Below are positions 4,074-24,575 of a stretch of DNA of 32,775 bases, piece after piece; position 1 is the first letter of the stretch; every line of letters begins with the position of its first letter. The DNA lies in the NCBI GenBank assembly GCA_028874985.1, contig JAPPGI010000198.1, positions 1-32,775 of the forward strand, written 5' to 3'. This DNA is from Gemmatimonadota bacterium (lineage in GTDB: Bacteria; Gemmatimonadota; Gemmatimonadetes; Longimicrobiales; Gaopeijiaceae). Below the pieces are notes generated by a model. The model had not been told where the DNA came from and made no database searches. It was given only the letters and a program-made list of their open reading frames with translations. The translations under genes and the position numbers were made by a program.

Positions 4074-5146
4074 GCCTGCTGGGAGCGATCCTGGCCGGGG
4101 GCGGGAGCCGTCGCTTCGGTTCGCCCAAGACGCTTGCCCGGCTGCACGGCAAGCCGCTTTGGAGGGTGGCGGCGGAGCGGCTCGAGACGGTTTGCGACGA
4201 TGTGGTGGCGGTCGTGAACCACCCCGCCGTGGCGCAGGCGGTGGAGGTGGAGACGCTGCCGGACCGTCGGCCCCTTATGGGTCCCCTGGGAGGAATCGAC
4301 GCGGCGCTCTACCGGGCGCGCCGCGATGGGCACAGGGCGGTGCTGGTGGTCGCCGTGGACATGCCCTGGGTCGGGACCGCCGCGCTCCGGCATCTCGCCG
4401 ACGCCTGGCGGAAGCACCGGCGCGTCTGCCTGCCGCGGGCGGGGCCGCCCTTCGGCTTCCACCCGCTCTGCGGGGTCTACCCGACTACGAGCCTCGCCCG
4501 CCTGGCCCGGGCGCTGGCCGCCCGGAGCCTCGAGGCCGGAGCCTTCGCGCAGTCGCTGGACCCGGTCCTGGTGGACACGGGTCTGCCCGCCGGCGCGCTG
4601 CGCAGCGTGAACCGGCCCGGCGACCTGCCGCCACCCGCCTTCTCGATCATCGGCAACAAGAAGTCGGGGAAGACGACGCTCGCGGTCGCGGTGATCGGCG
4701 AGCTGGCGCGGCGCGGTCGCCGCGTTATGTCGGTCAAGCACGGCCACCACTTCCGTCTGGACACCCGAGGCTCGGATTCCTGGCGCCACCGGCACGAGGG
4801 CCGCGCCGAACGCGTGCTCCTCGCGGGGCCCGACGGGTTCGCGCTCATGGGCGACTGGGGGCAGGAAGGCGAACCGTCGCTCGACCTTCTGCTGGCACGC
4901 CACCTGCCGGAAGCCGAGATCGTGGTGGTGGAGGGATTCCGCCGGGCCCGCGTGCCCAAGGTCGAGATCCACCGTTCGGCGGCGCAGCCGGAGCCGGTCC
5001 TGAATCCCGAGAGGGCGGAGGCGATGGGGGCGCTGGCCGTCGTGACGGATCGTCCCGGGCTCCCCTGGTCCGTCCCGGTCCTGGATGCCGACGCCCCGGA
5101 TCTGGCCGCCCGCGTCTCGGACCTTGCGGAGGCGGCTCTGCTGTGA
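4070..5146 (+). CDS. mobA: MobA-MobB fusion: molybdenum cofactor guanylyltransferase and GTP-binding adapter
   Basis: This 358-residue protein joins two Mo-cofactor enzymes. Residues 1 to about 185 are MobA, which attaches GMP to Mo-molybdopterin to form MGD; the nucleotide-binding loop LAGGGSRRFGSPK is at 8-20, followed by PLMGPLGGI and VDMPWV. Residues about 190-358 are MobB, a P-loop GTPase-like protein with GNKKSGKTT (195-203), the MobB segment VKHGHH, and VVVEGFRR. The start overlaps the fdhD stop. Making both from one polypeptide beside fdhD and fdhBA suggests dedicated cofactor supply for this formate dehydrogenase. The gene has no recognisable intrinsic terminator behind it. The 166 bp to the next gene are GC-rich with no clear promoter. 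Confidence 0.94.
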   Translation: MSLLGAILAGGGSRRFGSPKTLARLHGKPLWRVAAERLETVCDDVVAVVNHPAVAQAVEVETLPDRRPLMGPLGGIDAALYRARRDGHRAVLVVAVDMPWVGTAALRHLADAWRKHRRVCLPRAGPPFGFHPLCGVYPTTSLARLARALAARSLEAGAFAQSLDPVLVDTGLPAGALRSVNRPGDLPPPAFSIIGNKKSGKTTLAVAVIGELARRGRRVMSVKHGHHFRLDTRGSDSWRHRHEGRAERVLLAGPDGFALMGDWGQEGEPSLDLLLARHLPEAEIVVVEGFRRARVPKVEIHRSAAQPEPVLNPERAEAMGALAVVTDRPGLPWSVPVLDADAPDLAARVSDLAEAALL

Positions 5147-5312
5147 CGCGGCAACCCGCGCACCGCGCGCGCCCGTCGCCCGCAACACGACGCCGAGGCT
5201 GGCCAAAAGACCTTCCGGACACCATCTTGGAGCCTGTTTGCCCCGTGCGCGGGCATGTCGCGCGCCGGCGTTCGGAACCACTCGCATGAACCAGGACGGA
5301 GAAGAGAGAAAC

Positions 5313-7058
5313 ATGACAAGTTGGCCACGCATCGGGACTTTCGGGGCCGGAGCACTGACGTTGCTGTTCGCGATTCTGTCGCCCGCGCAGGCGAGTGGGC
5401 AGGTGAGCGAGAGGTTCAACGTCCTGGTGACCAATCTGGTGCCCCTGAACGGTGCCGATGACGACTTCGGCAAGGATCTCGGGAAGGTGCTGCGAAGGCT
5501 GATCGGCGACCTGGCGACCCACCGGGCGGTGGAGGAAAAGGATGTCCGGGCCGTCCTCAAGCAGCACGACCTCAAGATGGAGGACCTGAACTGCGCCGTG
5601 TCGCTTCAGCTTGCCACGCACGGCCTGGCCCGAATCGTCTTCTGCGGATCCTACACCGAGAACCGCCAGGACCGGACATTCTCCCTGACGGGTGTCCAGT
5701 TCGCCTCGCCCGGAAGCTCGCCCCTCAAGGTTCCGGACAAGACCTGGCACCGGCAGGAGGTCGATGCGGCCGCCCAGGATATCGCCGCTTCCTTCGAGGC
5801 CTACGTCACCCAGCTCCGGAACGCGCAGTTCTGCGCCGACTTCTACACCTCCCGGGACTACGACAGTGCCGAGAGGACCTGCAGAATGGCGCTCCGGATC
5901 GCACCGGACGACCCTCAGGTCCTGCTGGTCCTGGCCCAGCTTCTGCGCCAGACCGATCGTCTGGATGAGGCGTACGGCGAGGTTCGCAGGGTCCTCGAGC
6001 TGGATCCCCTGAACGAGACCGCGCTGCAGTTGGCGGGTTTTCTGGCCACATCCCTGGGCCGTGACGCGGAAGAGGCCCGGGGGTACTACGACAAGTTCCT
6101 GCAGTTGAAGCCGGGCAACGTTCCGGTGCGCCTGAAGATCGCCTACGAGCTGGCGCAGGCGGGAGATCCCGAGGGCGCGATGCTGTTCGTGGAAGAGGGT
6201 CTGGCCATCGAGTCCGACAACACCGACCTGCTGGAGCAGCACGCTTCGTTCGCGATCGAGGCCGGACGGCGTCTTCAGGAGGAGGGCGAGCCGCTTTCGC
6301 CCGAAGCCGCGGAACTGTTTCGCAAGGGATCGGAGTCCTACGGACGGGCCTACGACGCGAACGGTTCGGAGATGGCCGTCAGCCACCTCTACCAGATGAT
6401 GGCCGCCCTGGTCCGGCTCGATCACCTGGACCGGGCCCTCGCGGTGGTCGGGGATATCCTGGAGACTCATGGTCAGGAAGCCAGAATGTGGGTGATCAAG
6501 GGCGACATTCTCAAGAAGCTCGACCGGCTGGAGGAGGCCCTGACCGCCCTGGACGCGGCGGAGGAGCGCGACCCCGTCTACCCGAACATCAGAGCCAAGC
6601 GGGGGCAGTGGTTCCTGGAAGCGGGCCGCGAGGAGGAGGCCCTGCCGGTGCTGAAGGAGGCGGTCGACAGGGGCGAGCAGCCCGCCGACGTCATCGCCTC
6701 CATGCTCTTCGGGGCGGCGGTGCGCAAGGGCATCGATGTCGACGACTGGGACTACGCGCTGAAGATGATCGCGATGGCCAAGGCGTTCGAACCCCAGCTC
6801 TCGGAGGCGAGGCGGGGCCAGCTGGATTTCTACAGAGCCTACGCCCTGTACAGTCAGGCCGTAGCCCAGCAGGAGCCCCAGAACCGGCAGAGCGCCGAGT
6901 TGACGCTGCCCAAGTTCCAGGAGGTCGCGCGGCTGCTGGCACTCCCCCACGTGGCCGGCTACGGCGGGGAGAAGCAATCGGGGCTGTTCAAGCAGCTCAC
7001 CGTCAACAACCAGGAGTACATCAAGATACAGGAGGCGGTTCTCCAGATAGGACTCTGA
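5313..7058 (+). CDS. Secreted TPR-repeat protein, first of a tandem paralogous pair
   Basis: A 581-residue exported protein of unknown function. The signal peptide has a hydrophobic core (about 8-24) and a likely cleavage after AQA at 25-27. Residues 33-165 form a folded domain (NVLVTNLVPLNGADDDFGKDL onward) whose layout loosely resembles the N-terminal domain placed before TPRs in TolB-N/CsgG-like proteins; this comparison is tentative. Several TPR-like helical pairs follow at about 180-300 and 400-480. Cysteines C94, C111, C174 and C190 are shared with the downstream paralogue. Start ATG 5313 was preferred over ATG 5286: it is preceded by a GGAG-containing leader like that of the paralogue, and the two proteins then align from residue 1. 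A periplasmic scaffold role is possible but unproven. Confidence 0.85.
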   Translation: MTSWPRIGTFGAGALTLLFAILSPAQASGQVSERFNVLVTNLVPLNGADDDFGKDLGKVLRRLIGDLATHRAVEEKDVRAVLKQHDLKMEDLNCAVSLQLATHGLARIVFCGSYTENRQDRTFSLTGVQFASPGSSPLKVPDKTWHRQEVDAAAQDIAASFEAYVTQLRNAQFCADFYTSRDYDSAERTCRMALRIAPDDPQVLLVLAQLLRQTDRLDEAYGEVRRVLELDPLNETALQLAGFLATSLGRDAEEARGYYDKFLQLKPGNVPVRLKIAYELAQAGDPEGAMLFVEEGLAIESDNTDLLEQHASFAIEAGRRLQEEGEPLSPEAAELFRKGSESYGRAYDANGSEMAVSHLYQMMAALVRLDHLDRALAVVGDILETHGQEARMWVIKGDILKKLDRLEEALTALDAAEERDPVYPNIRAKRGQWFLEAGREEEALPVLKEAVDRGEQPADVIASMLFGAAVRKGIDVDDWDYALKMIAMAKAFEPQLSEARRGQLDFYRAYALYSQAVAQQEPQNRQSAELTLPKFQEVARLLALPHVAGYGGEKQSGLFKQLTVNNQEYIKIQEAVLQIGL

Positions 7059-7417
7059 CCGGTTGCCGGGACCGGGTAAGAGGGTAGCGACGGATCTTCC
7101 GGGGCGCGTGGGGGGGGGGCTGCCGCCGGACCTTTCGGACCGTTCCCGTGGTAGCATACCGAAATGAATACAATTCCGTCCCGCACCCGAACCGTCTTCG
7201 GTGGAGGTGGTCCCCGTTTCGGCGCGGGCCGCGGGACCTCGCGGTTGACCCTGACCGAAGGGGAACCGTACATTACGGAGTCTCCCAACAAATTCGTGGA
7301 TACTGGCATTCCTGCGGTGACGGCCCTAACGTTGGCGTCTGTCCGCCCCGGCGCGCCGGGCCGAGTCTGTGGGCGGTACCTTCGACAGTGCAGGGACCTA
7401 GAACGGAGATAGGCAAC
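7059..7417 (+). promoter_or_regulatory. Intergenic region between the TPR paralogues, with candidate promoter
   Basis: A 359-bp gap without a gene. The open frame of the second TPR gene extends back to 7148, but the translation there is not protein-like and lies before a signal peptide, so I treat it as untranslated. Best promoter candidate: TTGACC (7245-7250), an 18-bp spacer, then TACATT (7269-7274). The leader ends with GGAG at 7405-7408 before ATG 7418. A run of ten G occurs at 7110-7119. A short stem CCGGT/ACCGG just after the first TPR stop has no T-tract and is not a convincing terminator. Confidence 0.4.
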
Positions 7418-9169
7418 ATGAGGAGTCGGTTACGGATTGGGATCGTCGGAGTCTGGGCGTTCGCATCGTTGCTCGGGCCCCTGGCGCCGGTGCCGGCGAG
7501 CGGGCAGGCGAGCGAACGGCTCAAGGTGATGGTGACCAACCTGGTTCCGCTGGACGGCGCGGATGACGACTTCGGCAAGGATCTCGCCAAGGCCTTGCGG
7601 GAGCTGATCAACGACTTCGCGCGCCATCAGGCGGTCGAGGAGAAGGAGATCCGCGACGCAGCCAAGAAGTTCGACCTCAAGATGGAGGAACTGGACTGCG
7701 TTCGGTCACTGCAGATGGTGGGCCAGGGAATAGCCCGCATCACCTTCTGCGGATCCTACACCGAGGACCGGGAGGCGAAGACGTTCACCCTCAAGGGTGT
7801 TCAGTTCGTGGCTTCGGGGGCGGCGCCGCTGGAAATCCCCGACAAGACCTGGCACCGCGACGACTACCGCTCGGCCGCCCAGGAGATCGCCGCCAAGTTC
7901 GATGAGTTCGTGACCCAGCTCACCAACGCCCGGTTCTGCGCCGAAGACTACGAAATGGAGAACTGGGACGCCGCGGAGTCGCGCTGTGTCGTCGCGCTCC
8001 GCATTTCACCGAACGACGCCCAGGTACGGCTGATCTACGCCCAGGTGCTGCGGCGGACCGAACGCCCCGAGCTGGCGTACGAGGAGGTTCTCAAGGTCCT
8101 GGAAATCGAGCCCATGGACAACACCGCGCTCCAGTTGGCCGGCTTCCTGGCCGCGATACTGGACCATCCGGAGGAGGCGCGGGAACACTTCAACCGGTTG
8201 CTGCAGCTGGATCCCGGCAACGTGCCCGTGCGGTTGAAGATCGCCTACGAGGTGGCTCAGGAGGGACAGCCCCGCGTGGCGATGCTCATCGCCGAGGAGG
8301 GTCTCGCACTCGAGCCCGACAACATCGACCTTCTCAAGCACCACGCCTCGTTCGCGATCCGGTCGGGCCAGGATCTGCAGGTCGAGGGCCAACCGCTGTC
8401 GCTTGAGACCGCCGAGTTCTTCAAGAAGGGCGTGGAGTCCTACAATCGGGTGTACGAGATGCTGGGCTCCGAGATGGAATCCAGCCACCTCTCGCTGATG
8501 ATCGGCGCGCTCAACGCTCTGGAGAGACTTGATCAGGCGCTCGATCTCGCCGACAAGGCACTGGAAACCCATGGCGACGAGGCCAAGTTCTGGTCCACCA
8601 GGGGCGACATCCTCAACAAGCTCGGGCGCGTGGACGATGCCCTGGCCTCCCTGGACGAGGCGGAAATCCGCGATCCCACCTATCCGAACATCAGGGCCAG
8701 GCAGGGAAGCTGGCTACTGCGCGACGGGCGCGAGGAGGCGGCGTTCCCCCTCCTGATGGAGGCGGTGGAAAAGGGCGAACAGCCGGCCACCAGCATCGCA
8801 AGCCTCTTCTTCGGTGTGGCGGTCAGCAAGGGGATACAGCCCAAGGAAGGGCCCAAGAACCCCCAGTTCGCGCTCCGCATGCTCGAGATGGCCAAGACCT
8901 TCGAGTCCGAGCTCCCCGACAGGATGCGGGGGCAGCTGGACTACTTCCAGGCCTATTCCCTCTACCTGATCGCGGAGCTGGAGCAGAAGCCGGAAACCGT
9001 GCAGAGCGCCCAGCGCACCCTTCCCAAGTTCCGGGAGGTGGTGCGCCTGTTGGGGCTGCCTCACGTGGTCGACTACGCCAGGGCCAGTCAGGCGAAGCAC
9101 CTCCAGCAGCTGAGCGACAACACCCAGCAGTTCATCGCGATCCAGAAGGCGGTCATCCAGAAGGGGTAG
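7418..9169 (+). CDS. Secreted TPR-repeat protein, second of a tandem paralogous pair
   Basis: A 583-residue paralogue of the preceding gene, aligning without gaps over the first 200 residues, including the motifs VTNLVPL-x-GADDDFGKDL, FCGSYTE (110-116) and PDKTWHR (141-147). It has an N-terminal signal peptide with likely cleavage after VPA (25-27). The conserved cysteines are again C94, C111, C174 and C190; an even number in an exported protein suggests disulfides. TPR-like repeats fill the central and C-terminal parts. Start ATG 7418 has GGAG 9 nt upstream. The gene probably has its own promoter in the 359-bp gap and ends before a strong terminator at 9204. Function is not recognised. Retention of both copies with conserved spacing implies they are not simply redundant, which is inference. 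Confidence 0.85.
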   Translation: MRSRLRIGIVGVWAFASLLGPLAPVPASGQASERLKVMVTNLVPLDGADDDFGKDLAKALRELINDFARHQAVEEKEIRDAAKKFDLKMEELDCVRSLQMVGQGIARITFCGSYTEDREAKTFTLKGVQFVASGAAPLEIPDKTWHRDDYRSAAQEIAAKFDEFVTQLTNARFCAEDYEMENWDAAESRCVVALRISPNDAQVRLIYAQVLRRTERPELAYEEVLKVLEIEPMDNTALQLAGFLAAILDHPEEAREHFNRLLQLDPGNVPVRLKIAYEVAQEGQPRVAMLIAEEGLALEPDNIDLLKHHASFAIRSGQDLQVEGQPLSLETAEFFKKGVESYNRVYEMLGSEMESSHLSLMIGALNALERLDQALDLADKALETHGDEAKFWSTRGDILNKLGRVDDALASLDEAEIRDPTYPNIRARQGSWLLRDGREEAAFPLLMEAVEKGEQPATSIASLFFGVAVSKGIQPKEGPKNPQFALRMLEMAKTFESELPDRMRGQLDYFQAYSLYLIAELEQKPETVQSAQRTLPKFREVVRLLGLPHVVDYARASQAKHLQQLSDNTQQFIAIQKAVIQKG

Positions 9170-10845: not shown

Positions 10846-11126
10846 CCCGCAAGGCCGGGCCGGGTCGGGTGATCGTCGCCCTGGTGGCATACGCGGTCGC
10901 GTTGACGGCCGTCGCCTGGCGCCAGTCCACGACCCGGGAGACGATGGCGGAGATCGACCGGCTCTCCCGTGAACTGGCGGTCGCCGCCGACGAGCGGGAG
11001 GAGCTGGCCCGCGAGCTGGCGGGGCTCGAAGCGCGCCGTTGGGTCGTCGAGGCGGCCGACCGGCGGCTCGGCCTTCGTCCTCCGAGCGAGGCGGAAGTGG
11101 TGATCGCCTCGGGGAGCTTGCGGTGA
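10842..11126 (+). CDS. ftsL: FtsL-like cell division protein
   Basis: A 94-residue bitopic membrane protein, recognised mainly by position between rsmH and ftsI and by architecture: a short basic N-terminus, one transmembrane helix (about residues 10-26), then a heptad-rich coiled coil (about 30-65) and a short periplasmic tail with RLGLRPPSEAEVV. FtsL joins FtsB and FtsQ and activates FtsWI septal synthesis. Start GTG 10842 overlaps the rsmH stop (GTGA) and has GGAGG 8 nt upstream. A longer open frame from 10674 lies inside rsmH and is not used. Sequence conservation in this family is low, so the name relies on context. Confidence 0.85.
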   Translation: MTRKAGPGRVIVALVAYAVALTAVAWRQSTTRETMAEIDRLSRELAVAADEREELARELAGLEARRWVVEAADRRLGLRPPSEAEVVIASGSLR

Positions 11127-14631: not shown

Positions 14632-16001
14632 CCGGATCCCCGTTCCGCTGGAGCGACGCCTCGGTGCGGCGCGCGCTGGGCCTCCCCGGCGGGGACCCCG
14701 CGCGCCTCTACGAGGACATCTCCACCGACACCCGGACCCTCGGGCCCGGCGACGTCTTCGTCGCCCTGGAAGGAGCCCGCTTCGACGGCCACGCCTTCGT
14801 CGGGCGGGCCGTGGCGCGGGGTTGCCGGGCGGTGGTCGCGCACCGCGAGCCCGGGGACCGTGCCGTACCCGTCTACCGGGTCCCCGACACGCTCACGGCC
14901 CTCGGCGACCTCGCGCTGCACCGGCGGGACCGGGCGAACGTCCCCGTGGTCGGAATCACCGGCTCCTCGGGCAAGACGACCGTCAAGGACATGACGGTGC
15001 GCGCCCTCTCGAAGAGCTACGACGTGCACGGCACGAGGGGCAACGAGAACAACCGGGTGGGCGTTCCCCTCACGATCCTGTCGATGCCGGAGCTCACCAC
15101 CGCGCTGGTGCTGGAGATGGGGACCAGCGAACCCGGCGAGATCGCGGAACTGGCGCGGATCGCGCGCCCGACGATCGGTGTGGTCACGACCGTCTCGGAG
15201 GCGCACACCGAGCGGCTGAAGGACCTGCGCGGCGTGCTCGCCGAAAAGCTCGACCTGATCCGCGCGCTCGGCCCGGCGGACACGGCCATCGTTGGCGACG
15301 AGCCGGAGGAGCTGGCCGGCGAGGCCCGTGCGCTCCGCCCCGACGTCGCGGTCTGCGGCTGGACGCCCCAGGCGGATCGCGCGCTGCGGCCCGATGCGGC
15401 GTACGGGAACGAGGACGGCACCTACGGCTTCGGCTGGCGCGGGCATCCCGTCAGGCTCCGGGTCCCGGGCATGCACAACGTGAACAACGCGCTGCTGGCG
15501 CTCGCCGTCGCCCACACGCTCGGGGTTCCCCCCGAACAGGCCGCCGCGGGCATCTCGGCCGTGTGGCCGGGCGCCTTGCGCGGAGAGGTCCGCACGCTGG
15601 GCGGGCTGACGCTCCTGGTCGACTGCTACAACGCCAACCCGGCGGGGGTCAGGGCCGCCGCCCTGTCCCTGTCGATGATAGGCGGCGAGGGCCGCTGGGT
15701 CGTCGTGCTCGGCACGATGCTGGAGCTCGGCGAGCGGTCCGCTGAGATCCACCGGGACACGCTCGCGGCGATCCTGCAGCTCGACCTGGACCTGTACGTC
15801 CTGACCGGCGCCTTCGCGCGGGCCGCAAGGGACTTCGCGGACGACAGGATCGCGGTGGCGGAGGAGCTGGCGGAACTGGCCTGGCGGCTGCCCCGCATGG
15901 TCGGCCCGGGCGACAAGGTGCTGCTCAAGGCGTCGCGCGGCATCCGTCTCGAACGGGTCATCCCGGCGCTCGAGCACCGCTTCGGAAGGGCGAGGGTCTG
16001 A
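14628..16001 (+). CDS. murF: MurF, UDP-MurNAc-tripeptide:D-Ala-D-Ala ligase
   Basis: A 457-residue Mur ligase that adds the D-Ala-D-Ala dipeptide to UDP-MurNAc-tripeptide. Features: ISTDTRTLGPGDVFVAL in the N-terminal domain, P-loop GSSGKTT (112-118), the MurF block GTRGNENNRVGVPLTIL, MGTSEPGEI, and in the C-terminal domain VDCYNANP and GTMLELGERS. ATG 14628 overlaps the murE stop (ATGA). No ddl for making D-Ala-D-Ala is in this cluster, so the dipeptide ligase must be encoded elsewhere. Confidence 0.97.
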   Translation: MTGSPFRWSDASVRRALGLPGGDPARLYEDISTDTRTLGPGDVFVALEGARFDGHAFVGRAVARGCRAVVAHREPGDRAVPVYRVPDTLTALGDLALHRRDRANVPVVGITGSSGKTTVKDMTVRALSKSYDVHGTRGNENNRVGVPLTILSMPELTTALVLEMGTSEPGEIAELARIARPTIGVVTTVSEAHTERLKDLRGVLAEKLDLIRALGPADTAIVGDEPEELAGEARALRPDVAVCGWTPQADRALRPDAAYGNEDGTYGFGWRGHPVRLRVPGMHNVNNALLALAVAHTLGVPPEQAAAGISAVWPGALRGEVRTLGGLTLLVDCYNANPAGVRAAALSLSMIGGEGRWVVVLGTMLELGERSAEIHRDTLAAILQLDLDLYVLTGAFARAARDFADDRIAVAEELAELAWRLPRMVGPGDKVLLKASRGIRLERVIPALEHRFGRARV

Positions 16002-17110
16002 TGCTCCACCACCTGCTCCCCCGCCTCGAAGACCTCCACATCGTCTTCAACCTCTTCAACTACATCACCGTGCGCTCGGCCGGGGCGATGGCGACCTCGC
16101 TGGTGCTCACGCTGTTGCTGGGCCGCCGGGTCATCGTCGGGCTCAAGGGTCGCGGCATCGTGGACGTCCCCGGCAGGAACGGGTACGGCGACGGGAGCCG
16201 GGGCGGCGTCAAGGCCAACATGGGCGGGCTCCTCATCGTCTCGGTGGCCACCCTTGCGACGCTGCTCTGGGCCGAGCTGGCGAACAGCTACACGGTCATC
16301 GCCCTGGTGGTCATGCTGTGGATGGGGTCGCTGGGCTTCCTGGACGACTACCTCAAGGTGGTGCGCCGCACCCCGAGGGGCCTGGTGGAGCGCTACAAGT
16401 GGGCCGGGTCGATCGGGCTCGGGCTGGCGCTGGGACTGTTTCTGGTGCTCGGGGCCCCCGAGTCGGCGGTGGGCGCCACGACCACGAACCTGCCCCTCTT
16501 CGACGAGTGGCAGCTGGTCTTCACGGCGCCGGCCTACCTGTTGTGGGTCACGGTGGTGATCAACGGCGCCACCCACTCGGTCAACATGACCGACGGCCTC
16601 GACGGCCTCGCGCCCGGGCTCGCCGCGATCGCCACGGGCACGTTCGGCGTCTTCGCCTACGTGATCGGGCGCGTGGACACCTCGGCGTACCTGGGACTGT
16701 TCTACCTGCCGGGCGCCGGGGAGCTGGCCGTCTTCGCCGCCGCGATCACGGGAGCCGCGCTGGGGTTCCTGTGGTTCAACGCGCAACCCGCCCAGGTCAT
16801 CATGGGCGACACGGGGTCGCTGGCCCTCGGCGGGGCGCTCGGCGCCATGGCCGTGCTTCTCAAGGCGGAGCTGCTGCTCTTCACCGTCGGCGGCGTATTC
16901 GTGGCCGAGGCGGCCTCGGTGATCATCCAGCGGGAGTACTTCAAGTACACGAAACGGCGCTACGGCGAAGGCCGGCGCGTCTTCAGATGTGCCCCCATCC
17001 ACCACCACTTCCAGATGGCCGGGTGGAAGGACGAGCAGGTCGTGGTCCGGTTCTGGATCCTGGGAATCCTCTGCGCGATGGTCGGCTTCGCCACGCTCAA
17101 GCTCCGATGA
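16001..17110 (+). CDS. mraY: MraY, phospho-MurNAc-pentapeptide translocase
   Basis: A 369-residue polytopic membrane enzyme that transfers phospho-MurNAc-pentapeptide to undecaprenyl phosphate, making lipid I. Diagnostic cytoplasmic-loop motifs are intact: GFLDDYLK with the catalytic aspartates, NMTDGLDGLA, WFNAQPAQVIMGDTGSLALGG and APIHHHF near the C-terminus. About ten hydrophobic helices can be seen. The start ATG shares one base with the murF stop (TGATG). Length matches the family. Confidence 0.98.
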   Translation: MLHHLLPRLEDLHIVFNLFNYITVRSAGAMATSLVLTLLLGRRVIVGLKGRGIVDVPGRNGYGDGSRGGVKANMGGLLIVSVATLATLLWAELANSYTVIALVVMLWMGSLGFLDDYLKVVRRTPRGLVERYKWAGSIGLGLALGLFLVLGAPESAVGATTTNLPLFDEWQLVFTAPAYLLWVTVVINGATHSVNMTDGLDGLAPGLAAIATGTFGVFAYVIGRVDTSAYLGLFYLPGAGELAVFAAAITGAALGFLWFNAQPAQVIMGDTGSLALGGALGAMAVLLKAELLLFTVGGVFVAEAASVIIQREYFKYTKRRYGEGRRVFRCAPIHHHFQMAGWKDEQVVVRFWILGILCAMVGFATLKLR

Positions 17111-17166
17111 GGGAGCAGCGCGTGCCGTCCTCCGCCGTCCCCGGATCCGGGAGCGAAAGGGAGTGA
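17107..17166 (+). CDS. Micro-ORF bridging mraY and murD (putative coupling ORF)
   Basis: A 19-codon frame, MREQRVPSSAVPGSGSERE. Its ATG overlaps the mraY TGA (ATGA at 17107-17110) and its TGA overlaps the GTG of murD (GTGA at 17163-17166). It has no ribosome site of its own, so it would rely on re-initiating ribosomes leaving mraY. No homology is recognised. It could act by carrying ribosomes across the 52-nt gap, or be a chance frame in GC-rich DNA. Confidence 0.3.
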   Translation: MREQRVPSSAVPGSGSERE

Positions 17167-18572
17167 GGGAAGAAAGAGAACGAGAACAGGTCGCCGTGAT
17201 CGGGTTGGGCGCCAGCGGAGACGCCGCGGCCCGGCTGGCCCTTCGGAAAGGATCGAAAGTTCATGTCACGGATACGAGCAGCGAGGACGCGGTTGCAGCT
17301 CGTGGAGCCGTCCTCCGGGACCTCGGCGCCGAGGTCCGGCTGGGCGGACACGACGTCGGGAGAATCGCCTCGGCGGACACCGTCGTCGTCAGTCCGGGAA
17401 TCCCGCCCGGCGCGCCGGTGCTCGCCGCCCTTCGCGCACGGGGTGTCGCTTGGGTATCGGAGCCTGAGTTCGCCTGCCGGTTCATCGAGGGTCCACTGAC
17501 GATCGTGACCGGCACGAACGGGAAGACGACCACCGCGGCGCTCTGCGCCCACCTCCTGCGCGAGGCGGGCGTGGACGTGGCTCTCGGGGGGAACATCGGG
17601 GGCGGCCTGGGGCCTCCCGCGTCGACCCTCGCGGCCGCGCACCCCGCGGCGGACCGCATCGTGCTGGAGCTGTCGTCGTTCCAGCTGGCGGACATCCGGG
17701 ACCTGACGCCCGACGTGGGCGTCATGACGAACCTGGGCGCGGACCACATGGACCGCTACGCCACGGTGGCCGAATACCACCGCGACAAGCGCCGCCTCTT
17801 CGAAGCGGGTGACGAGAACACCACGTGGGTGGTCAACGGCGACGACCCCGCCGTCCTGGCGATGGCCGAGGGCGTGCCGGGAACCCGTCTCGCCTTCTCG
17901 CTGGAGACGGCCCCGTCGCCGGGGGCGTATCTCTCGGGCGGCGACCTGGTGCTGGACGCGGGGGGCTCGGACGGCGCGGCGGACCCACCGCGACCGCGCC
18001 GGGTCGGGGCCGCCTCGGACGTGCGGCTCCTGGGGCGCCACAACCTGGCGAATGCGCTGGCCGCACTCCTCGCCGCGACCGCCTCGGGCGCCTCTCCCGG
18101 GTCGGTGCGGGGGGCGCTGCGGTCGTTCGCACCGCTTCCCCACCGGCTCGAACCGGTCGGGACCTTCCGGGGGACGCGCTGGGTGAACGACTCGAAGGCG
18201 ACCAACGCGGCCGCCGCGGCGAGCGCGCTCGCCAGCGTGGACGGCCCGGTGGTGCTCCTGCTGGGCGGCAGCGACGGGGGGCAGGACTTCGGCGGCCTCG
18301 TCCCGGCGATGCGGGGGAAGGTGCGGGCCGTGGTGGCCTACGGAGCCGCGGGCGCGAGGGCCGCGGCGGAGGTGGCGGAGGCGGCCGGGAGCGACATCGC
18401 GGTGCAGCGGGTCGGCGGCCGCTTCCGGGAGGTGGTCGCCGCGGCCCGCGCGGCGGCGAGGCCGGGCGACACCGTGCTGCTCGCGCCGGCGTGTTCCAGC
18501 TTCGACATGTTCGCGAACTACCAGGTCCGGGGGGACGCCTTCCGGGCCCTGGCCCCGGATGTCCCCCGGTGA
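17163..18572 (+). CDS. murD: MurD, UDP-MurNAc-L-alanine:D-glutamate ligase
   Basis: A 469-residue Mur ligase adding D-glutamate to UDP-MurNAc-L-Ala. It opens with a Rossmann-like strand, VAVIGLGASG, then VVVSPGIPPGAP, the P-loop GTNGKTTT (from G117), LELSSFQL, TNLGADHMDRY, WVNDSKATN and the C-terminal LLLGGSDGGQDF. Start GTG 17163 gives a short charged lead before the first strand and has GGAG 9 nt upstream. GTG 17196 is possible but would begin right at the nucleotide-binding strand. The TGA overlaps a GTG that may be the ftsW start. Confidence 0.95.
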   Translation: MREEREREQVAVIGLGASGDAAARLALRKGSKVHVTDTSSEDAVAARGAVLRDLGAEVRLGGHDVGRIASADTVVVSPGIPPGAPVLAALRARGVAWVSEPEFACRFIEGPLTIVTGTNGKTTTAALCAHLLREAGVDVALGGNIGGGLGPPASTLAAAHPAADRIVLELSSFQLADIRDLTPDVGVMTNLGADHMDRYATVAEYHRDKRRLFEAGDENTTWVVNGDDPAVLAMAEGVPGTRLAFSLETAPSPGAYLSGGDLVLDAGGSDGAADPPRPRRVGAASDVRLLGRHNLANALAALLAATASGASPGSVRGALRSFAPLPHRLEPVGTFRGTRWVNDSKATNAAAAASALASVDGPVVLLLGGSDGGQDFGGLVPAMRGKVRAVVAYGAAGARAAAEVAEAAGSDIAVQRVGGRFREVVAAARAAARPGDTVLLAPACSSFDMFANYQVRGDAFRALAPDVPR

Positions 18573-23275: not shown

Positions 23276-24498
23276 AGTCGATGCTCGTGACCGGCCTGGA
23301 CGTCGGTTCCACGTACACGCGCGCCGTCATCGGCGAATACGTGCGCGATTTCCACCGCCCCGAGATACGCGTGCTCGGCGTGGGCCGCACTCCCACCAAC
23401 GGAGTTCGCAAGGACGCGGTCACCGACCTCGACGGGGCGACCGAGACGGTCCGCCGGGCCCTCCAGGAAGCCGAACTGATGGCGGGAATGCGCGTCGACC
23501 GGGTCTACGCGGGCATCTCCGGCGATCACATCGACGTGAACCGCTCCGTGGGGGTGGTGGCGGTCGCCACCGACGAGATCGTGCCGCGGGACGTGAGGCG
23601 GGTGCAGGCGGTGGCGCGGGCGGTGCCCGTGGTGCGGGACCGGGAACTGCTGCACGCCATTCCCCAGAACTACTTCGTCGACAACCAGGGAGGCATCAAG
23701 GACCCCATCGGCATGTCGGGCACCAGGCTGGAGACGGAACTCTTCCTGGTGACCGGTTGCTCGGCGGTTCTGGCCAACGTCGTGCGCGCCGTGGAGCGCG
23801 CCGGATACCGGGTGCAGGAGACGGTCCTGGAGCCGATCGCGGCGTCGCGCGCCGTGTTGGCCGAGGACGAGCGGGAACTGGGTGTGGCCATGGTGGACCT
23901 CGGCGGCGCCACCACCGGCTTCTCGGTTCACTACGAGGGCAGGATCCGGCACCTGGAGGTGCTGCCCTTCGGCGGGAACACCATCACCAGCGACCTGATC
24001 CGGGGGTTGTCGATCCCGTTCGCCGAGGCGCGCAGGATCAAGGAACTGCACGGATCCGCGCGGGCCCGCGCACTGAAGCCCGACGACATGATTCAGGTCC
24101 CCGGCACGAACGGGGGCAGTCGCAGGGTGGCCCGGGCCATGGTCGCGGGGCTCGTCGAAGAGCGGCTGCAGAGCATCTTCCGCGAGGTCGACAGAAGGCT
24201 CCATGACGTCTTTCCGCAGGTGTCGCTGGGCGCGGGGGTCGTGATCACGGGCGGGGTGGCGGTAACACCGGGAATCGTCGAGGTCGCCAGGCGGTGCCTC
24301 TCGGCCCCCGTGCGCATCGGGGCCCCGGGAGAGGGCCTTTCGGGGCTGCTGGACGTGGTCTCGGGTCCGGGTTTCGCAACGGCGGCCGGGCTGGCCCTGC
24401 ACGGGGCGGACTGCTTCATGGACACCGGGCGCGGCGTTTCGACGCCGGCCTCCGGGGTGGTCACCAGGGTGGGCGCCTGGCTCAAGGAGTTCTTCTGA
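23272..24498 (+). CDS. ftsA: FtsA, actin-like membrane anchor of the Z-ring
   Basis: A 408-residue actin-fold ATPase tethering FtsZ to the membrane. Seen: phosphate-1 LDVGSTYTRAVI, the 1C-domain region YAGISGDHI, phosphate-2 MVDLGGATTGFSVH, adenosine motif VVITGGVAVTPG, and the C-terminal amphipathic membrane helix VTRVGAWLKEFF. Start ATG 23272 overlaps the ftsQ stop with GAGG 7 nt upstream. ATG 23281 is an alternative with GGGAGG 9 nt before it. The gap to ftsZ is 73 bp. Confidence 0.96.
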   Translation: MKSMLVTGLDVGSTYTRAVIGEYVRDFHRPEIRVLGVGRTPTNGVRKDAVTDLDGATETVRRALQEAELMAGMRVDRVYAGISGDHIDVNRSVGVVAVATDEIVPRDVRRVQAVARAVPVVRDRELLHAIPQNYFVDNQGGIKDPIGMSGTRLETELFLVTGCSAVLANVVRAVERAGYRVQETVLEPIAASRAVLAEDERELGVAMVDLGGATTGFSVHYEGRIRHLEVLPFGGNTITSDLIRGLSIPFAEARRIKELHGSARARALKPDDMIQVPGTNGGSRRVARAMVAGLVEERLQSIFREVDRRLHDVFPQVSLGAGVVITGGVAVTPGIVEVARRCLSAPVRIGAPGEGLSGLLDVVSGPGFATAAGLALHGADCFMDTGRGVSTPASGVVTRVGAWLKEFF

Positions 24499-24575
24499 TG
24501 CGGACATATCGATACGGAAACAGGCAGGACCACACCAACGGGACACGGGTCCCGAGCAAGGAGATGAGACGATGA
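24498..24575 (+). CDS. Micro-ORF bridging ftsA and ftsZ (putative coupling ORF or leader)
   Basis: A 25-codon basic frame beginning MRTYRYGNRQDHTNG. Its ATG shares a base with the ftsA TGA (TGATG at 24496-24500) and its TGA overlaps the ATG of ftsZ (ATGA at 24572-24575). It also contains the AAGGAG ribosome site of ftsZ. About 72% of its codons end in G or C, which seems low for these genes, so coding pressure is not evident. It may be translated only to couple ftsA and ftsZ, or the gap may simply be an ftsZ leader. Confidence 0.3.
   Translation: MRTYRYGNRQDHTNGTRVPSKEMRR

Follow-up and report, generated by a model that had tools for sequence, protein, structure and literature searches.

A 19-codon frame bridging mraY and murD in a Gemmatimonadota bacterium, probably a displaced murD start

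Introduction

In the dcw cluster of a Gemmatimonadota bacterium (family Gaopeijiaceae; assembly GCA_028874985.1), a short open reading frame exactly fills the gap between mraY and murD, overlapping the stop codon of the one gene and the start codon of the other. Is this frame kept as a relay that passes re-initiating ribosomes across the gap, as was proposed in a first-pass annotation made from the sequence alone, or did it come about in another way? Termination-reinitiation at ATGA and TGATG overlaps is described in the available parts of two earlier papers (PMC6728339, PMC10666635). The overlaps of the window's own dcw junctions and both ends of the frame are of this kind; unlike the gene pairs treated there, the present locus has a 19-codon frame between two genes. 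The window is the whole stretch of DNA analysed, that is, 32,775 nucleotides of contig JAPPGI010000198.1 on the forward strand, and its genome is referred to as G000.

Materials and Methods

A search for MraY gave matches in 22 of the 23 genus genomes and 118 of the 121 family genomes. At E 1e-60 or better, the order yielded matches in 148 of its 154 genomes, the class in 380 of the 394 that were sampled, and family f7 in 138 of a sample of 148. The mraY-murD junction was read in 234 cases including that of the window: 112 from the family, 52 of 53 retrieved from other parts of the order and class, and 70 of 70 from f7. Within the family, 112 of the 118 matched genomes were used; G006, G020, G036, G058, G077 and G116 were omitted because their mraY match was weak, incomplete or truncated at a contig end. 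From the rest of the order all 33 genomes were fetched, one of which (G125) had no murD in its stretch. The class was represented by 20 picked genomes and f7 by the 30 best matches plus 40 spread over its genera, out of 138 matched.

Shine-Dalgarno pairing was scored against an assumed anti-Shine-Dalgarno sequence, not one read from the host 16S rRNA. When the 16S 3′ end was searched for, the own genome yielded only fragments up to model position 870 and G022 gave no match.

Results

On the forward strand of the window, mraY (16001..17110; Pfam PF00953) is followed after a 52-nt gap by murD (17163..18572; PF21799, PF08245, PF02875), which starts with GTG and has an N-terminus alignable with those of relatives. 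The neighbouring dcw genes were likewise confirmed by Pfam. A micro-ORF of 19 codons (17107..17166, same strand), encoding MREQRVPSSAVPGSGSERE followed by a stop, extends from ATG 17107-17109 to TGA 17164-17166. Its start overlaps the mraY stop, TGA 17108-17110, as ATGA, and its stop overlaps the murD start GTG 17163 as GTGA (17163-17166), the latter being the overlap that a coupled short upstream ORF has with the gene after it. The first-pass annotation had described this frame as exactly spanning the gap with both overlaps, and its coordinates proved exact. Two copies of the direct repeat TGAGGGA were found on the same strand, one on the mraY stop (17108..17114) and one on the murD start (17164..17170). 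Ahead of murD stands GGGAG (17149..17153, forward strand), a possible Shine-Dalgarno sequence of GTG 17163.

According to the same annotation, this kind of overlap recurs at other dcw junctions, and the window bears this out. Overlaps of −4 were found at murE/murF, murD/ftsW, ftsW/murG, murG/murC, murC/ftsQ, ftsQ/ftsA and ftsI/murE, and an overlap of −1 at murF/mraY. In addition, a 94-codon frame begins at a −4 overlap on the rsmH stop and ends in GTGA at 11123-11126; if it is taken as ftsL, by position only, and ftsI starts at GTG 11123, both of its junctions are −4. Should this ftsL/ftsI assignment hold, only two gaps are left in the row from rsmH to ftsZ, namely mraY-murD and ftsA-ftsZ (73 nt).

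The ftsA-ftsZ gap is also bridged exactly, which was not among the claims of the first-pass annotation. A second micro-ORF on the forward strand (24498..24575), with 25 codons encoding MRTYRYGNRQDHTNGTRVPSKEMRR followed by a stop, extends from ATG 24498 to TGA 24575; it overlaps the ftsA stop by 1 nt (TGATG) and the ftsZ ATG at 24572 by 4 nt (ATGA), both genes having been identified by Pfam. The Shine-Dalgarno sequence of ftsZ scored −8.8 kcal/mol, a value that roughly 10% of random positions attain. Elsewhere in the window, at 5085-9169, two adjoining large ORFs of 657 and 673 aa appeared similar by eye and are perhaps tandem paralogues.

Of the 234 junctions, 116 have the murD start directly on the mraY stop, 60 have it no more than 25 nt away and 57 at a greater distance; in one no start was found. 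In f7, 68 of 70 junctions were direct or near; the remaining two were those of G276, with a TAG stop, and G267, with a TGA stop and a chain-bridged gap. The latter (L274) is 71 nt long and holds three chained micro-ORFs, joined one to the next by GTGA, of which the final one overlaps murD.

No gap is present in G018, G003 and G022 (MraY 92-93% identical), which are the nearest relatives whose junction could be read. In these three, GTGA on the mraY stop opens murD, and the sequence that follows it aligns with that following GTG 17163. ATG 17107 therefore occupies the place of the relatives' overlapping murD start. Relative to these genomes, the window carries a 56-nt tract (17107..17162, forward strand), which is common to G000 and G017 and absent from the other three; it was read as an insert, or else as lost in the others. 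The tree gives no firm sister pairing of G000 and G017, and the tract may have been gained in these two or lost in G018, G003 and G022. In G017 the tract has the same length and a similar sequence, with 12 of 60 positions differing from G000. In a comparison of the overlaps across related genomes, the check that had been suggested for a relay, both were retained in G017 despite these differences, and the nearest readable relatives were gapless.

The differences between G000 and G017 were distributed 3/7/2 over the codon positions of the micro-ORF; in mraY of the same pair the distribution was 27/18/95. One codon change was synonymous and nine were non-synonymous, in two sequences that give little power. 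No sign of purifying selection on the peptide, as would be expected of a conserved small protein, was found in this comparison of two sequences. In the murD frame the same differences fell 2/3/7 over the codon positions, and 14 of 19 residues agreed; for the micro-ORF frame, counting the stop, the figure was 11 of 20. This pattern would suit translation of the tract as part of a MurD lengthened at its N-terminus. Between the mraY stop and GTG 17163, however, the murD frame contains no ATG, GTG or TTG, and an accumulation of 7 of 12 differences on a single codon position says little when two sequences are compared, so that such an extension appears very improbable.

No second copy of the tract was found in the own genome, where one match with two mismatches to an 18-base piece was obtained. 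Among the genus matches listed, which are ordered by E-value, the only copy of the tract was that of the same junction in G017, the other matches being short and at E 0.001 or worse. A genome-wide repeat was rejected on these grounds. The fold of the tract was compared with shuffled sequences (z 0.77), 149 of 200 shuffles being equally or more stable, and a structured tract was rejected for this reason. GGGAG is partly covered by a local hairpin; when a longer stretch is folded, G000 and G017 pair this motif differently.

GGGAG is the same in G017, and in both genomes the murD GTG scored −6.6 kcal/mol and the micro-ORF start, which is without a Shine-Dalgarno sequence, +0.3. The value at murD is not rare, random positions reaching it fairly often: with the settings used for dcw starts, −6 is attained at 30% and −7 at 18% of randomly chosen window positions. 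The other overlapping dcw starts of the window scored −4 to −14 kcal/mol, so overlapping starts here need not be without a Shine-Dalgarno sequence. Over 163 of 164 junctions (G128 being without a start), −5 kcal/mol was reached by 2 of 75 direct murD starts, 50 of 70 displaced ones and 0 of 46 left-over NTGA starts, counts that come from related genomes and are not independent. Within mraY, 23% of random positions reach −5 and 13% reach −6. That displaced murD starts carry a Shine-Dalgarno sequence is supported by these counts, and the contrast with direct starts is partly forced, because conserved mraY coding sequence precedes a direct murD start.

The best single case for a relay was found in genus g48. 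A clade of four genomes (G130, G133, G134 and G137; L236, L232, L235 and L230; support 100/99) has gaps of 55, 157, 352 and 361 nt, which differ in content. In each of them a frame stays open from the mraY stop onwards and ends in an exact overlap of 4 nt with murD; the frame of G137 begins with CTG. In a second g48 clade, with TAG or TAA mraY stops and long gaps, the corresponding frame was closed in all three genomes: G131 and G132 have several stops in it, G135 a single one.

A palindrome, AGTCCGCCTNCGCGGACT, was seen by eye in the mraY-murD gaps of G131, G132, G133 and G137. All 10 g48 genomes searched contained 30 to 287 matches each, forward and reverse, in a count that allows one mismatch and in which a few sites may count twice. 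The palindrome, which possibly represents a MIRU-like or REP-like family, was not found in searches of the G000, G017 and G141 genomes.

In the clade of g3 and g34-g37, 16 of 28 genomes bridge the gap exactly and several frames are broken; by eye, 3 of 8 length changes shifted the murD body by a number of nucleotides divisible by three. Changed frames or in-frame stops in relatives had been named beforehand as what would speak against a bridging frame under selection. They do occur in this clade, yet the four g48 genomes keep an open frame. In g3, g34, g36 and g37 (for example L148, G099) the gap opens alike, with GTGAGCGAATATGNTGCG or a sequence near it, and many members have a frame of 13-15 codons beginning VSEYAA. 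Here the start of the gap may carry another signal, because its DNA is partly kept even where the frame is broken.

How often an exact bridge arises by chance was estimated from dinucleotide shuffles in which both overlaps were given. At mraY-murD the expectation was 0.94 at the actual gap length and 0.34 with random phase, and for the ftsA-ftsZ gap with random phase it was 0.21. DTGA-to-DTGA frames of 10-40 codons are common as such, since 11 were observed on the forward strand of the window and a mean of 27.7 in 20 shuffles.

In 36 genomes the mraY stop is TGA, a start codon overlaps it and the gap measures at least 25 nt; under a null conditioned on this, with shuffles that did not count as gaps removed, an unbroken path to murD was present in 23 of them against 13.5 expected. 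When lineages were merged by hand (g3 with g34-g37 as one, and G130, G133 and G134 as one) and called bridged if more than half of their genomes were, 6 of 10 were bridged against 4.0 expected (P 0.16), a count that omits G137 for its CTG start and G113 and G034 because a further start in frame with murD lies no more than 25 nt away. When the genus of the finding, which was chosen because it bridges, was left out, the figures were 5 of 9 against 3.6 (P 0.26); with G130, G133 and G134 counted apart they were 8 of 12 against 4.75 (P 0.047). With gap lengths fixed, 21 of 43 genomes were exact against 14.7 expected. Unconditioned nulls, which gave expectations of 17.8 for the 23 of 36 genomes and 5.5 for the 6 of 10 lineages, were dropped, as they counted in-frame N-terminal extensions as successes; genomes with such extensions had been classed as direct and removed, and the conditioned null favours a relay more. 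Bridged lineages exceed the conditioned expectation slightly, and chance explains most of what is seen at the mraY-murD micro-ORF.

Discussion

Extra DNA at an overlapping start most likely produced the micro-ORF as a by-product, which may still pass ribosomes on. In the reading that we consider probable, ATG 17107 is the displaced ancestral murD start, turned into a bridge by the tract bounded by TGAGGGA. In the ancestor, murD would have begun on the mraY stop as NTGA without a Shine-Dalgarno sequence and would have been translated by ribosomes re-initiating after mraY; the state of G018, G003 and G022 suggests such an overlap as ancestral in the branch of G000. The 56-nt tract would then have come between two copies of the junction, both marked by TGAGGGA. 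The upstream NTGA would have remained with mraY, and the downstream GTGA, preceded by GGGAG, would have become the new murD start. Because 56 leaves a remainder of 2 on division by three and the tract has no stop in that frame, the old start now opens 19 codons that close on the TGA of the new start. Re-initiation at 17107 is likely, because the equivalent site is the sole murD start seen in three close relatives, and murD is presumably fed partly by ribosomes relayed from there and partly through GGGAG. Direct coupling of mraY to murD over 52 nt is unlikely, since a distance of 38 nt lowered re-initiation by 80-100% in three E. coli gene pairs according to the available part of PMC10666635. 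Several points weigh against the displaced-start reading: the tract could be older and have been lost in G018, G003 and G022; the Shine-Dalgarno contrast is partly forced, and the score at murD is not a rare one; and the g48 bridges at four gap lengths, together with that of ftsA-ftsZ, exceed what a pure by-product leads one to expect.

These same bridges argue for the relay of the first-pass annotation, taken here as a frame kept by selection because murD needs coupling to mraY. The overlaps retained in G017, the chain of three micro-ORFs in G267, and the excess of unbroken paths among the 36 gap genomes and of bridged lineages when the three g48 members stand apart also favour it. The lineage counts with these members merged or without this genus (P 0.16 and 0.26), the 16 of 28 exact bridges and 3 of 8 frame-keeping length changes in g3/g34-g37, the GGGAG that murD has of its own, the peptide without constraint and the gapless relatives do not, and we regard a selected relay as possible but doubtful. 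A wider form of it would see the Gemmatimonadota dcw cluster as an unbroken chain of overlapping stops and starts, here from rsmH to ftsZ, in which inserts of any sequence or length survive only if they bridge, the micro-ORFs being sequence-free ribosome relays. Its examples would be mraY-murD, ftsA-ftsZ, the g48 gaps of up to 361 nt and the G267 chain; so general a rule seems to us unlikely. At the other extreme, ribosomes would leave after mraY and murD would be initiated by its own Shine-Dalgarno sequence alone, leaving the micro-ORF inert. The score of GGGAG, with nothing comparable at the micro-ORF start, and the unconstrained peptide are consistent with this; the site itself equals the murD start of three close relatives, which lacks a Shine-Dalgarno sequence and is preceded by last mraY codons that are much alike, and we hold an inert frame to be quite unlikely.

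Mycobacterial interspersed repetitive units (MIRUs) are inserts at a DTGA stop/start overlap that carry DTGA at both ends. Judged from the available part of PMC12548453, they are the closest known analogue of the displaced murD start. The tract similarly has ATGA (17107) and GTGA (17163) at its ends, and G018, G003 and G022 have GTGA without it, a likeness of arrangement. Whereas MIRUs are interspersed in many copies (PMC12548453, same part), no second copy of the tract was found in its genome and, among the genus matches listed, it recurs only at the G017 junction. The available parts of two papers on small mobile repeats (PMC2229807, PMC10969869) describe elements fused in frame to genes and do not use the term MIRU. 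In the short ORF of E. coli iraD (PMC5574718, available part) the stop also overlaps the start of the next gene, with control shown; that ORF lies in a leader and is a CsrA target, unlike the present one between two operon genes. Salmonella mgtQ, between mgtC and mgtB, is likewise an intergenic short ORF and affects translation of the next gene; according to the available part of PMC8092293 it works with alternative stem-loops, unlike the tract, with a fold no more stable than shuffles (z 0.77). Bridging frames in Gemmatimonadota were not described in the titles and abstract openings of the top matches in the literature searched.

If the relay fails, the locus advises caution, as an exact bridging frame is ordinary given overlapping starts and GC-rich DNA. 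If it works, an operon whose genes start on their neighbours' stops could take insertions and keep its coupling, and these junctions would offer a natural series of gap lengths for testing how far ribosomes get handed on.
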